Origin: Minisyncoccota bacterium
GTDB taxonomy: Bacteria; Patescibacteriota; Minisyncoccia; Phycocordibacterales; Zambryskibacteraceae
DNA length: 37,372 bases
Reading direction: 5' to 3'
Assembly: GCA_020059045.1 (NCBI GenBank)
Contig: JAGVCW010000017.1
Span: 1-37,372 of the forward strand
Under the pieces are notes generated by a model, which had not been told where the DNA came from, searched no databases, and saw nothing but the letters and a program-made list of their open reading frames with translations. Of this stretch, positions 12,310 through 17,387 are shown in pieces. How positions within the stretch are numbered: position 1 is the stretch's first letter; each line of letters starts with the position of its first letter. Both the position numbers and the translations under genes were made by a program.

Positions 12310-13299
12310 TTATTTGTACTCACTAAATACTTTATTATTCAACTTGTGAGTATTGCCATGTGAGAGTAACCCCCTATATGATGATACTGTTTGTGCCTTT
12401 TGGTTATGTTTTATCCTTTTTATCATTCTTCGTTTTGTGGCTGGTCTTATAACTTTGTGATCAAAAAAGTGTATCCATCCCAAGAAATCTATTCCTGATG
12501 TGAATGTTTTCGTAAAAACTTTATTTGGGTGTAAATTCAGCTTTAACTTTTCTTCTAGAAATTTGTTTGCTATTTGAAGAGTACTAAAAAGATAATTTTT
12601 ATTATCAGACAGAAATACGAAATCATCAGCGTACCGTATATAAAATCTACATTTTAATTCGTGCTTAATAAACTGATCAAACTTGTTCATATATATATTT
12701 ACTAGAAGTTGTGAAGTAAGATTGCCCAGTGGTAAGCCTTTGCCTACTACCCCAGAATCAAAGCTCTTCACAACCACTTTTAGTAGTTGGAGCGTCTCAG
12801 CATCAATGTCATAAGTAGAAAGAATATTCAAAAGTATAGTATGGTCAATGCTTGCAAAAAACTTCTTAATATCGCACTTCAGAACCCAGCAAGTTCTAGT
12901 ATTGTTCTTGCTTACCTTCCAAAAGTTTTGCTTAAATCTACATATTGCCTTATGTGTCCCTTTACTCTGCCTACAGGAATAAGAGTCGTGAATGAACCTT
13001 GAATCGAAATACGGATAGAGAACTTTGTATATTGCATGATGTAATAGTCTATCTCTTACACTAGCCTTGTGTATGTTTCTGGGTTTTGGATCTGAAATAT
13101 TGAAAGCATGATATTTGCCATGCTTGTAATTCTTGTTCACCAAATCTGTGTAAAGATTTACGATATTATCCATTAGCCTTAATTGAAATAGCTGTACATC
13201 TTTTTTATTTCTTTTCCCTTTTAAAAACTCCTTCCACGCGTTAAGAAGATTTTCAATTGAAATGATAGAATCAAATGAAAGAAAAAATTGTTTAGACAT
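12310..13299 (-). CDS. DGR-type reverse transcriptase
   Basis: 329 residues, a compact RT with no maturase or endonuclease domain. Motifs in order: a YSCRQSKGTHKA palm start (about 105-116), CDIKKFFASIDH (about 140-151), GLPLGNLTSQLLVNIYMN (about 185-202), the catalytic FYIRYADDFVFLSD (about 219-232) and FLGW (about 285). The GLPLGNLTSQ form, where most RTs have QGxxxSP, is typical of diversity-generating retroelements. The start is supported by GGTGAA about 6 nt upstream. It ends 18 bp before the GH15 gene. With the TR at 13731, the VR at 14206 and Avd it forms a complete DGR, in which it would copy TR RNA with errors opposite adenines. Confidence 0.97.
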   Translation of the reverse strand: MSKQFFLSFDSIISIENLLNAWKEFLKGKRNKKDVQLFQLRLMDNIVNLYTDLVNKNYKHGKYHAFNISDPKPRNIHKASVRDRLLHHAIYKVLYPYFDSRFIHDSYSCRQSKGTHKAICRFKQNFWKVSKNNTRTCWVLKCDIKKFFASIDHTILLNILSTYDIDAETLQLLKVVVKSFDSGVVGKGLPLGNLTSQLLVNIYMNKFDQFIKHELKCRFYIRYADDFVFLSDNKNYLFSTLQIANKFLEEKLKLNLHPNKVFTKTFTSGIDFLGWIHFFDHKVIRPATKRRMIKRIKHNQKAQTVSSYRGLLSHGNTHKLNNKVFSEYK

Positions 13300-13711
13300 A
13301 TTATTTCACCATAAAAAATACTACTATGACGCCCCCCCCCCGCAACTTTTACCCCTACTTCAGAAAACCAAGGAATCATACCTACTTTGGTATAACTATT
13401 ATGGAGAACTACCAAAACTTCACCGATACTCACTTGGATTAAGAATTGATAACTTATTCGTGGAAATCATCGAGGGTATAGCAATTGCGAGCTTTTTGTC
13501 TCGAGAAGAGAAAAGACCTTGGGTAGCCTTCGCTATACGGAAAACAGATACTTTGAAAATACTCTTAATGATTTTATGGGAAACTAAATCTCTTGACGAC
13601 AAGAAATACATTGCGCTTTCATTTAAGACCACTGAAATTGGGAAAATGCTTGGTGGTTGGAGTGGACAGCTTTCAAAACAAAACTCCCCACCAAAAGGCA
13701 GGGAGAAATGA
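13262..13711 (+). CDS. avd: DGR accessory variability determinant (Avd), uncertain start
   Basis: 149 residues as drawn. From about residue 28 it reads as the Avd four-helix bundle of Patescibacteria DGRs: LLPLLQKTKESYLLWYNYYGELPKLHRYSLGLRIDNLFVEIIEGI, then LKILLMILWETKSLDDKKYIALSFKTTEIGKMLGGW. The basic tail (KGREK) is also typical. Avd binds RT and TR RNA and is needed for mutagenic homing in Bordetella phage. It lies on the strand opposite to RT and TR. The ATG at 13262 would overlap the RT start by 38 bp. A second ATG (13326) is followed by a C10 tract (13332-13341) and would be in frame only with one more, or two fewer, C. Confidence 0.85.
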   Translation: MIESNERKNCLDILFHHKKYYYDAPPPQLLPLLQKTKESYLLWYNYYGELPKLHRYSLGLRIDNLFVEIIEGIAIASFLSREEKRPWVAFAIRKTDTLKILLMILWETKSLDDKKYIALSFKTTEIGKMLGGWSGQLSKQNSPPKGREK

Positions 13712-13730
13712 AGAAGATTGCGAGGACGGG

Positions 13731-13850
13731 AAGACGAAACGGCCGACGGCATTCCAGAAGTTGTCAGAGTTGCCGTTGTTGCCGTTGAGCCAACGCTCGT
13801 CGTTGTCGTGTTCGACGTTGAAGACGTTGAGATTGCCATCCGAATCGGTG
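13731..13850 (-). repeat. DGR template repeat (TR)
   Basis: 120 bp matching the 3' end of the target gene (14206-14325) at a constant offset of 475. There are ten mismatches, at 13753, 13780, 13800, 13804, 13806, 13812, 13819, 13827, 13828 and 13845. At each, the TR has T on the plus strand, i.e. A on the coding (minus) strand. The replacements in the VR are seven G, two C and one T on the minus strand. The TR is rich in AAC/GAC codons (NLNVF, DNDERW, NGNNGNSDNFW), which place adenines at the first two codon positions. It starts 19 bp past the avd stop. Confidence 0.97.
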
Positions 13851-13946
13851 TGTGCAAAGTGCCTTCCAAGCCACCACCCCTTGAATACTCTTAGGGTTGA
13901 ATCGTATTCCGCATCGTAATGCAATAGCACTCTGCACCAAGTATCT

Positions 13947-14069
13947 TCATTTTTGAAGTTTCTGCATACACCACTCTATCTGAATCCTTGAACGCAGATA
14001 CTCTCGGCGTATGGATACTGGGTTCGGTAGCGGGAAACCGTAGTCGCCCACATATTCACCTACTACCAC
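13947..14069 (-). CDS. Possible 40-residue ORF or gene remnant between target and TR
   Basis: A short open frame with a GTG at 14069 reads VVGEYVGDYGFPLPNP..., ending WCMQKLQK. Its mix of residues (Gly-Asp-Tyr, several Arg, Trp-Cys-Met) looks protein-like rather than random. There is no good ribosome-binding site, and another frame continues downstream through the TR (13673-13930). It may be a remnant of a former second target gene from which the TR was derived. Function unknown. Confidence 0.25.
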   Translation of the reverse strand: MVVGEYVGDYGFPLPNPVSIRREYLRSRIQIEWCMQKLQK

Positions 14070-14083
14070 CTTCTATTCTATAC

Positions 14084-14117
14084 AAAAGGAAAGGGCCCAT
14101 CAAAAAGCGATGGGCCC
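14084..14117 (-). terminator. Intrinsic terminator downstream of the DGR target gene
   Basis: On the minus strand a 9-bp stem GGGCCCATC/GATGGGCCC (14109-14117 with 14093-14101), loop GCTTTTT, followed by TTTCCTTTTG. It is about 70 bp past the stop codon of the target gene and upstream of the TR. Confidence 0.75.
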
Positions 14118-14120
14118 CGA

Positions 14121-14170
14121 CCTGCCTTCGGCAGGAGGACTAAGTCCTTAGGGTCAAAGAAGACCCTAGG
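14121..14170 (-). other. Two stem-loops just downstream of the VR
   Basis: CCTGCC/GGCAGG with a 3-base loop (14121-14135) and CCTTAGGGTC/GACCCTAGG with a loop of about 6 bases (14147-14170). They lie 36-85 bp beyond the 3' end of the VR, outside the coding region. In the Bordetella phage DGR a hairpin directly after the VR is needed for target recognition; a similar role here is only a possibility. Confidence 0.5.
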
Positions 14171-14186
14171 AACAGAGTCCAGAGAA

Positions 14187-14822
14187 CTACTTGCTCGGAC
14201 GAACGAAGACGAAACGGCCGACGGCATCCCAGAAGTTGTCAGAGTTGCCGTTGTGGCCGTTGAGCCAACGCTCGCCGTAGCCGTGTCCGACGTCGAAGAC
14301 GCCGAGATTGCCATCCGAAGCGGTGATGGGTTCCATCCCGATGACGAGCCACTCGCCCTTCGGCTGGTCCGCATACTGCAAACGCAGTGCGGGTCCGACC
14401 TCAGCGGGGCAGAGCTCTAGACCCAAGCTCAATGCCTTGGCAATGATGTCTCGACGGTAGGCCCCGTCCTTGAAGCCGAGGTCCGCCACCGACACATTCA
14501 CGAGGTCCACGTTCATCTCCGTCTCACTCACCGTGAAGGCGGGATTGCCGAGGATATCGTTGCCCCAGTCGCCGATTTTCATCTTCGCCTGCTTGATGGC
14601 AGAGCGGAAGTCGTCGGCGGTCTTGAGGTTCGTGCCGAGCTTGACGGTCTTCCACACGGGGAAGTCAAGCTGTGGCTCAGGAATGGGTTCGGGCTTTGGG
14701 GCCTCCACCAGGACGAGCTCTCCTCGACGTAAACGAGCAGCACCCTCGATACCACCGAGAATGTTGAAGGTTGCCTCGATGGTTCCAAGATCGAGGCCTG
14801 CGTACTTCATTGTCGTGCTCAT
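14187..14822 (-). CDS. DGR target protein with variable C-type-lectin-like C-terminus
   Basis: 211 residues. The N-terminal motif LGTIEATFNILGGIEGAARLRRGELVLVE (about 12-40) is one I know from many Patescibacteria proteins of unknown function. A Pro-rich linker (APKPEPIPEPQ) follows, then a middle domain (about 55-150). The C-terminal part (GEWLVIGMEPITASDGNLGVF...GERWLNGHNGNSDNFWDAVGRFVFV) has the Trp/Gly/Asn pattern of the C-type-lectin fold used by DGR targets. There is no signal peptide or membrane helix. Start at ATG 14822 with GGAGG about 9 nt upstream. The gene is clearly richer in G+C than its neighbours. Ligand unknown; varied binding is inference. Confidence 0.93.
   Translation of the reverse strand: MSTTMKYAGLDLGTIEATFNILGGIEGAARLRRGELVLVEAPKPEPIPEPQLDFPVWKTVKLGTNLKTADDFRSAIKQAKMKIGDWGNDILGNPAFTVSETEMNVDLVNVSVADLGFKDGAYRRDIIAKALSLGLELCPAEVGPALRLQYADQPKGEWLVIGMEPITASDGNLGVFDVGHGYGERWLNGHNGNSDNFWDAVGRFVFVRPSK
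14206..14325 (-). repeat. DGR variable repeat (VR)
   Basis: The copy of the TR inside the target gene, covering about residues 166-206 of 211. Protein changes from TR to VR are D to A, N to G, N to D, E to G, D to G, N to Y, D to G, N to H and N to D. The invariant frame (ERWLNG.NGNSDNFW.AVGRFVF) remains. The end near 14206 is GC-rich with no TR-specific adenine (GGCCGTTTCGTCTT on the coding strand), as expected for the initiation of mutagenic homing site. Confidence 0.97.
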
Positions 14823-14835
14823 GGCATTTTCTCCT

Positions 14836-14894
14836 CCGACTGTTAGTCGGCATTGTTTCTCTACCTATTAGGCAGAGAGCCGTATGGATACGGC
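14836..14894 (-). promoter_or_regulatory. Structured 5' leader of the target gene: three hairpins
   Basis: Between promoter and start codon there are three successive stem-loops: GCCGTA/TACGGC (14879-14894), CTCT.CCTA/TAGG.AGAG (14859-14877) and CCGACT/AGTCGG (14836-14850). The last touches the GGAGG ribosome-binding site, so folding could limit or time translation. Confidence 0.55.
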
Positions 14895-14930
14895 AATTGG
14901 TCGGTATGCTACAAAAAGAACTACACCTAT

Positions 14931-14960
14931 ATTATACCATAGTTAATATTCAAAAGTCAA
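14931..14960 (-). promoter_or_regulatory. Sigma70-like promoter of the DGR target gene
   Basis: TTGACT (14960-14955), 18-bp spacer, perfect TATAAT (14936-14931). Start of transcription would be near 14924, giving a leader of about 100 nt. Confidence 0.8.
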
Positions 14961-15010
14961 TATCAAAAATATGGCTAGAAATAACCACTATTTGTGCACT
15001 ATAAAGTTAC

Positions 15011-16922: not shown

Positions 16923-17387
16923 AGTCTGTAAAGTTATTAAAGTCTATAAAGTCCTTAAAGCTTGAGATTCTTCTAGTCAATTTAATTTAATTATGAATCC
17001 TGATAACATTTTTGAAATTTCTTCTACCATTTCATACAAACGTTTGAAATCTTTTTCTGAAATAAATTTTACTTCTTTTGCAATATATACCATTGATCTT
17101 ACTTCTGCACTTGATCCCTTTGCCATAAACAGATAGTGCTTAAGCTCTTTATCCCCTCTCCTCTCAAAACCTTCAGCAATATTATTCATTATCGAAACTG
17201 AAGCTCTTTGTAACTGGTCACGGAAACTCCAGTCCTTGCAATCTTTCAATATAGAGTATACATCCACTACCAAATTCTTCGACTTCTGCCAAACTAGTAT
17301 GTCTTCAAATCTTTCGATTTTCATCACCTTTATATTTATCGACCTTTTTGCTTGATATCTTCCCCGACTTTCCTGACTTTACAGACT
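16923..17387 (-). mobile_element. Four-helix-bundle gene flanked by inverted AAAGTC-type repeats
   Basis: AGTCTGTAAAGT at 16923-16934 is the exact reverse complement of ACTTTACAGACT at 17376-17387. Next to both lie further short units of the same kind (AAAGTC/GACTTT, spaced by 3-6 bases: 16940-16955 and 17366-17398). The four-helix-bundle gene is the only gene between them, so the unit looks like a cassette placed between GH57 and the GT4 gene. Exact ends are uncertain. Confidence 0.5.
16977..17324 (-). CDS. Four-helix bundle protein (S23/IVP family)
   Basis: 115 residues from the ATG at 17324; a GTG directly before it (17327) is also possible, with AAAGG just upstream. Signatures are FEDILVWQKSKNLVVDVYS (near 6-24) and the family hallmark DQLQRASVSIMNNIAEGFERR (near 37-57), then a helical tail. 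The family was named for proteins encoded in 23S rRNA intervening sequences. Function is not established, though binding to structured RNA has been suggested. Avd of DGRs is a distant relative, but this gene has the S23-type hallmark and a true Avd exists at 13262-13711. Confidence 0.9.
   Translation of the reverse strand: MKIERFEDILVWQKSKNLVVDVYSILKDCKDWSFRDQLQRASVSIMNNIAEGFERRGDKELKHYLFMAKGSSAEVRSMVYIAKEVKFISEKDFKRLYEMVEEISKMLSGFIIKLN

Follow-up and report, generated by a model that had tools for sequence, protein, structure and literature searches.

Introduction

The diversity-generating retroelement (DGR) of Bordetella phage BPP-1 comprises four parts in the order mtd-avd-TR-brt, with avd upstream of the template repeat (TR) in a single avd-TR-brt operon, in which TR and brt are separated by a long structured spacer. 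Avd is required in this element (PMC12875486), and upon reconstitution in Escherichia coli the inactivation of avd cuts homing, scored as repair frequency, to about 1e-9 (PMC12875486). The regulation of DGRs in nature is described as an open frontier in the same 2026 reconstitution paper (PMC12875486). Here, we analyze a DGR located within a 37,372-nucleotide stretch of DNA (the window) from a Minisyncoccota bacterium of the Patescibacteria (contig JAGVCW010000017.1). It shares with BPP-1 the four parts and adenine mutagenesis, but its avd gene is inverted between TR and the reverse transcriptase (RT) gene, the start of avd straddles a simple-sequence repeat, and a terminator-like hairpin follows directly after TR.

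As described by Roux et al. 2021 (PMC8144416), DGRs are a common feature of Patescibacteria, and one clade, DGR clade 2, is restricted to this group and has targets that lack recognizable domains; the activity of clades 2 and 3 is below average (PMC8144416). The element of the window is a candidate member of this clade of Patescibacteria, or candidate phyla radiation, and has the RT, TR, variable repeat (VR) and domain-less target in common with it. The word Avd is absent from the main text of the paper describing clade 2, and no avd repeat was found there (PMC8144416). The DGR as such is ordinary for Patescibacteria; what makes it unusual is the repeat found where avd begins.

Repeats of this kind are known from the contingency loci of Neisseria, Haemophilus and Campylobacter, which carry a poly-G/C run of at least seven or a tetranucleotide repeat at the 5' end of the coding region, with units that are not multiples of three and with all phases found. 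These loci mostly govern surface antigens or methyltransferases, whereas the gene controlled in the window would be part of a targeted mutator, and its phases are known from comparison between species. A further likeness is found in the MSH6/MSH3 homopolymers, each of which lies inside a gene that sets the mutation rate and acts as a mutability switch (PMC11250277); that case concerns the genome-wide mutation rate in tumors rather than a site-specific bacterial retroelement. In the literature searched, outside of which lie most subscription journals, we found no report tying DGRs to repeats or to phase variation of avd, and a DGR with a conserved yet replaceable slippage repeat in its helper gene appears to be an undescribed variant.

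We present evidence that the DGR of the window is of the Patescibacteria type and that its avd is a phase-variable contingency gene, in which slippage of the repeat switches Avd and thereby hypermutation; we assign this reading a probability of roughly 0.8. Nearly as probable, in our judgment, is its extension across the phylum, in which a hypermutable avd switch would decide in each cell whether the target is diversified by the retroelement. In this second-order form of bet-hedging, selection would maintain the repeat as such while its sequence is exchanged repeatedly.

The 5' end of avd in the window

The original prediction, made from the nucleotide sequence, reported a DGR with an RT, an Avd-like gene, a TR and a VR, but overlooked a run of ten cytosines (C10; 13332-13341) between the RT gene and avd, as well as a hairpin and T-run behind TR. 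No other C/G run in the genome reaches this length; apart from the C10 tract, a run of at least eight occurs just once, as a G8 on a different contig. An ATG stands six bases ahead of the tract, and its frame reads ATG ACG before entering the C run. This ATG joins the avd frame only with eight or eleven cytosines, so that in the C10 form assembled here avd is out of frame with the nearest upstream ATG and the assembled genotype may represent the off state of the element. Neither ATG, GTG nor TTG occurs between the C10 tract and the start of the conserved avd domain. A single upstream ATG, at 13262, does lie in the avd frame; it falls within the RT gene on the opposite strand and is an alternative start, and its existence leaves the on/off state of avd in the window uncertain.

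The Avd-like open reading frame (ORF) that had been called earlier was confirmed by two models, each below its curated cut-off: NCBIfam Avd NF033474 (E=1.2e-13; 51 bits, cut-off 80) and Pfam bAvd (E=1.5e-8; 35.5 bits, cut-off 40). Its identity is also backed by context, since the same protein stands beside a divergent RT throughout the clade. What the earlier call had missed is the strand: avd is encoded on the + strand, whereas RT, TR and the target all lie on the - strand, and it therefore diverges from RT and converges with TR.

A repeat at the avd junction across Patescibacteria

To place the C10 tract in context, we assembled 263 non-redundant junctions, drawn from Avd searches at the family, order, class and phylum levels and from named genomes found via their RTs. 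By thresholds of our own, a repeat was counted when it comprised at least six cytosines or, for other units, at least twelve repeated bases, with units of up to nine bases allowed. The layout is nearly constant across relatives, with RT divergent from avd and TR behind avd. A simple-sequence repeat lies directly 5' of the avd domain in 221 of the 263 junctions (84%). Poly-C accounts for 199 of these, ranging from C6 to C14 with a mode of 9-10; the other 22 comprise 17 dinucleotide, 4 tetranucleotide and 1 pentanucleotide repeats, with the units CT/AG/GA, CA, CAAC/AACC, CAAT, GTCA and AGGAC. Units of 3, 6 or 9 bases are absent from all 221. As in contingency loci, the repeat is thus found at the 5' coding end and is built solely from units of 1, 2, 4 or 5 bases.

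The repeat is confined to this position. Among 105 order-level loci, C/G runs of at least seven occur at 94 junctions, and the 336 kb outside the junctions hold two, one of which marks a further avd junction. The mono-, di- and tetranucleotide repeats found in these loci are all located at the junction, and only three repeats, each of 7-mers, were found elsewhere.

On a FastTree phylogeny of the RTs from 189 loci, poly-C and another unit have replaced one another at least 10 times, the presence or absence of the repeat has changed at least 9 times, and the frame has moved between in-frame and out-of-frame at least 41 times. Such exchanges are apparent even within one close cluster, in which avd is 82-91% identical in the pairs listed and the junction carries C9 (L031), AACC x10 (L029), CAAC x12 (L146), CAAT x7 (L265, assigned by its near-identical junction) or GTCA x8 (L027), while L144 and L145 of the same cluster have no repeat. 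These comparisons of sequence indicate that the junction is conserved as a repeat and not as a sequence. Poly-C as a sequence-specific element, such as a G-quadruplex or a protein site, was ruled out as a candidate, because other units replace it.

Three assembly gaps (N) fall in or beside the repeat tracts of these junctions, one of them inside a C run, and may be an indirect sign of length change within a population. At one junction (L171), C9 is followed directly by G9, forming a perfect inverted homopolymer pair.

Start codons and reading frames

In 99 of 104 loci the frame of the closest ATG on the 5' side runs into the repeat without a stop, compared with 56 +/- 5 (maximum 68) in dinucleotide shuffles. 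When the count is limited to RT leader sequence outside the RT coding region, an open ATG is present in 33 of 67 loci against 17 +/- 3 after shuffling. The frame differs between junctions with and without a repeat: an in-frame open upstream ATG was found at 66 of the 221 junctions with a repeat (30%) and at 37 of the 42 without one (88%; Fisher p=1.2e-12), and within the clade only at 64/214 and 16/20, respectively (p=1.6e-5). A repeat-less sister group with more distant RTs (L201-L206) has its ATG cleanly in frame, as in M-S-D-F-D-I-P. The four repeat-less exceptions inside the clade include three with short or interrupted repeats below our threshold (L136, L199 and L295) and one that seems to lack the junction (L254). 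Taken together, the placement and openness of these ATGs argue that avd translation begins 5' of the repeat. The openness of the repeat-to-avd stretch itself differs too weakly between frames to be used (104/104 versus 95/104 and 98/104).

When frames are assigned by the nearest ATG, a rule of our own, the phases of the repeat loci are distributed 55/94/68, with 55 of 217 in frame. All three phases are likewise seen for di-, tetra- and pentanucleotide repeats, and the frames of C9 or shorter runs also scatter.

Loci with avd out of frame

Of the 137 repeat loci that are out of frame, 136 have an intact avd gene body. TR/VR pairs are retained in 123 of the 137, and 93% of their differences fall at A; among relatives the count is 2939 of 3118, by unbiased scoring in both cases. 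On and off frames therefore both occur with an intact gene body, in a comparison made between species. The combination of an intact avd and A-specific TR/VR differences in out-of-frame loci fits a reversible state better than decay.

MutS_V (PF00488) was not found in the genome of the window and exceeded the cut-off in 1 of 31 genomes; 11 of 14 controls were positive. Given established knowledge of mismatch repair, repeat tracts should be unstable in a host without a recognizable MutS.

Two observations concern repeats elsewhere. The G8 run of the window genome (G000:C27:4303-4310; L331 1501-1508) lies in the signal-peptide-like start of a 368-amino-acid ORF, and this secreted, adhesin-like ORF is a candidate second contingency locus. 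Many poly-C/G runs of at least eight are present in eight members of the order (G038, G040, G046, G069, G070, G076, G078 and G084), which suggests further contingency loci in Patescibacteria.

A proposed switch and its alternatives

In the mechanism that we propose, avd would be translated from an ATG 5' of the simple-sequence repeat, which is C10 in the window. Slipped-strand mispairing during replication would add or remove units, none of which has a length divisible by three, and would thereby shift the frame of avd. When avd is in frame, Avd would be produced, the RT-Avd complex would copy TR RNA, and the mutated cDNA would substitute for VR; when it is out of frame, retrohoming would halt and the current target variant would be retained. 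Cells would thus alternate at random between diversifying and holding. We infer the slippage rates, the loss of Avd out of frame, the failure of homing when Avd is missing and the advantage that a cell would gain; that Avd is needed for homing in this clade is carried over by analogy with BPP-1.

A spacer within a divergent RT/avd promoter, in which gaining or losing units would act on the transcription of either gene or both and not on the frame, is an unlikely reading of the repeat. Promoter repeats are known in other bacteria, and the repeat does sit between divergent genes, mostly within about 60 nucleotides of the RT start. However, the upstream ATGs open into the repeat far above chance, repeat-less junctions are in frame, and no unit of three exists among the 221; in addition, the avd frame overlaps the 5' end of RT in many loci and hence leaves little promoter room. 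We regard as more doubtful still a programmed slippage of RNA polymerase or the ribosome on the tract, which would yield constant low Avd at any length and make the repeat a matter of dosage and not of heritable state. Poly-C is prone to such slippage, and one out-of-frame phase is over-represented (94 versus 68 and 55), as a preferred register might be; yet all three phases occur, and poly-C is replaced by CA, CT, CAAC, GTCA and AGGAC, repeats that are typical of replication slippage but offer a poor slippery site. A leak of this kind would in any case be compatible with phase variation.

Least credible of all is an ordinary constitutive DGR with an incidental poly-C, in which avd would be read from ATG 13262 or a non-ATG codon and the scatter of frames would reflect assembly errors. 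Although ATG 13262 is in frame in the window and homopolymers are prone to sequencing error, such error can neither place a repeat identically in 84% of junctions nor exchange its unit, the frames scatter at C9 and below as well, and in relatives a stop usually interrupts the sequence that would be read from ATG 13262. This reading is already contradicted at the level of the clade.

Several points nevertheless weigh against phase variation of avd as the explanation. One genome per species was compared, and switching of length within a population can be deduced only indirectly from such sequences. In the window, the in-frame ATG 13262 would yield avd without any switch. The in-frame share by nearest ATG, 55/217, is under one third. 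The loci share ancestry, and the p-values given above thus overstate independence; some homopolymer lengths in assembled metagenomes may be wrong by one base, and the frames would then scatter artificially. Finally, in about 25 loci, many of them in one genus, no ATG stands between the repeat and the RT domain and the RT frame crosses the poly-G; here RT may likewise be under the influence of the repeat, or the starts are not understood.

If phase variation of avd holds, it would represent a concrete, phylum-wide form of DGR regulation, a heritable, reversible and stochastic switch on a mutator. It could also explain the below-average activity of Patescibacteria DGRs (PMC8144416) despite fresh TR/VR pairs. 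In that case, avd would also be overlooked or called too short by gene callers in most such genomes.

Components of the retroelement

Table 1. Positions of the retroelement parts and associated signals within the window
Feature	Position	Strand	Remarks
DGR reverse transcriptase, 329 aa	12310..13299	-	RVT_1 E=8.5e-25; GLPLGNLTSQ and YADD motifs
avd reading frame as assembled	13262..13711	+	conserved domain / profile match 13355-13687
Probable avd start codon ATG	13326..13328	+	nearest ATG 5' of repeat, phase 2
C10 tract (poly-G on RT/TR strand), proposed slippage switch at avd 5' end	13332..13341	.	same-place repeat in 221/263 related junctions
Hairpin (9-bp stem) and T-run directly downstream of TR, overlapping avd 3' end	13681..13706	-	fold -15.9 kcal/mol
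Template repeat (TR), 30 A in 120 nt	13731..13850	-	
7-bp stem, located downstream of VR by about 37 nt; candidate counterpart of the stem-loop found behind the homing site in known DGRs	14149..14168	-	weak
211-aa target gene, with a variable C-terminal domain behind an N-terminal module (GTIEA..LGG..GA)	14187..14822	-	
Variable repeat (VR)	14206..14325	-	

TR and VR are 92% identical over 120 nucleotides, and all 10 of their differences lie at TR adenines on the - strand. The earlier claim of a complete DGR with adenine-specific changes was borne out when TR and VR were re-derived and RT, Avd and target were confirmed, as was the count of nine altered target residues; the chance of such a pattern, earlier put at one in a million, was recomputed as 2.6e-7. 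The further claim of ongoing or recent homing stands in part: the pattern attests to past homing, but the element may be off in the assembled genotype. Sixteen nucleotides separate the end of VR from the target stop codon, which places VR at the 3' end of the target ORF. A search of the whole 902-kb genome, assembled in 30 contigs and 97% complete, returned one TR and one VR, with no second VR. The TR region (13727-13882) resembles the target protein, at 67% over residues 155-207, and because this similarity extends past TR, TR seems to be embedded in a decayed copy of the target 3' end.

The RT contains the DGR-type motif 4 (GxxxSQ) in the form listed in Table 1, and its matches to the group II and retron RT models of NCBIfam all fall short of the cut-off. 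Its named relatives belong to Moranbacteria, Yanofskybacteria, Jorgensenbacteria and Paceibacterota. A viral origin was rejected: the RT has no relative in viral contigs, Avd has no phage match, and phage RTs are less than 40% identical. In eight related loci (L017, L036, L038-L040, L042, L043 and L048), mostly of one genus in the family of the window, the RT domain is preceded by no ATG on its side of the repeat, and the RT frame runs through the poly-G (..WGGAFKRLAHTYDDIIS..), and RT in loci of this kind may be frame-switched itself or use an unusual start.

A hairpin-type 3' end of TR is found in 105 of 178 loci with a TR/VR pair; its stem is at least 6 bp in 104 of the 105 and is formed by 82 different sequences. 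The TR RNA probably ends at the hairpin and T-run; the hairpin may serve as both a terminator and an RT-Avd binding site. Downstream of VR the signal is weak, with stems of at least 7 bp in 27/178 loci versus 4/178 shuffles. A scan against Rfam gave no credible RNA family.

Target protein and genomic context

Homologues of the target were found in 30 of 99 genomes searched. The 211-residue protein has no sequence match in Pfam, NCBIfam or the Protein Data Bank. Its AlphaFold model has a mean predicted local distance difference test (pLDDT) score of 80, and the top Foldseek matches of this model are C-type-lectin domains, none of them significant (best E=0.12, probability 0.66, TM-score 0.46 by target). 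The lectin-like domain proposed in the original prediction is thus weakly supported by these matches, and a lectin fold of the variable domain is plausible for the model. Close target homologues (66%) are present in two genomes that the Avd searches did not match (G009:C4:96766-97347, locus L004; G011:C20, locus L006), and are possibly former or trans-acting targets.

Neighboring genes on the contig include what we take, by eye, to be GatB, Obg and SecA, among others; these neighbors and the named relatives of the RT assign the window to Patescibacteria. The 1-kb block 14001-15000, which holds the target gene, has a G+C content of 54%, against about 39% in the remaining window. An ORF standing alone at 16977-17327(-) resembles, by eye, a 23S-rRNA-intervening-sequence four-helix protein, a fold that includes Avd.

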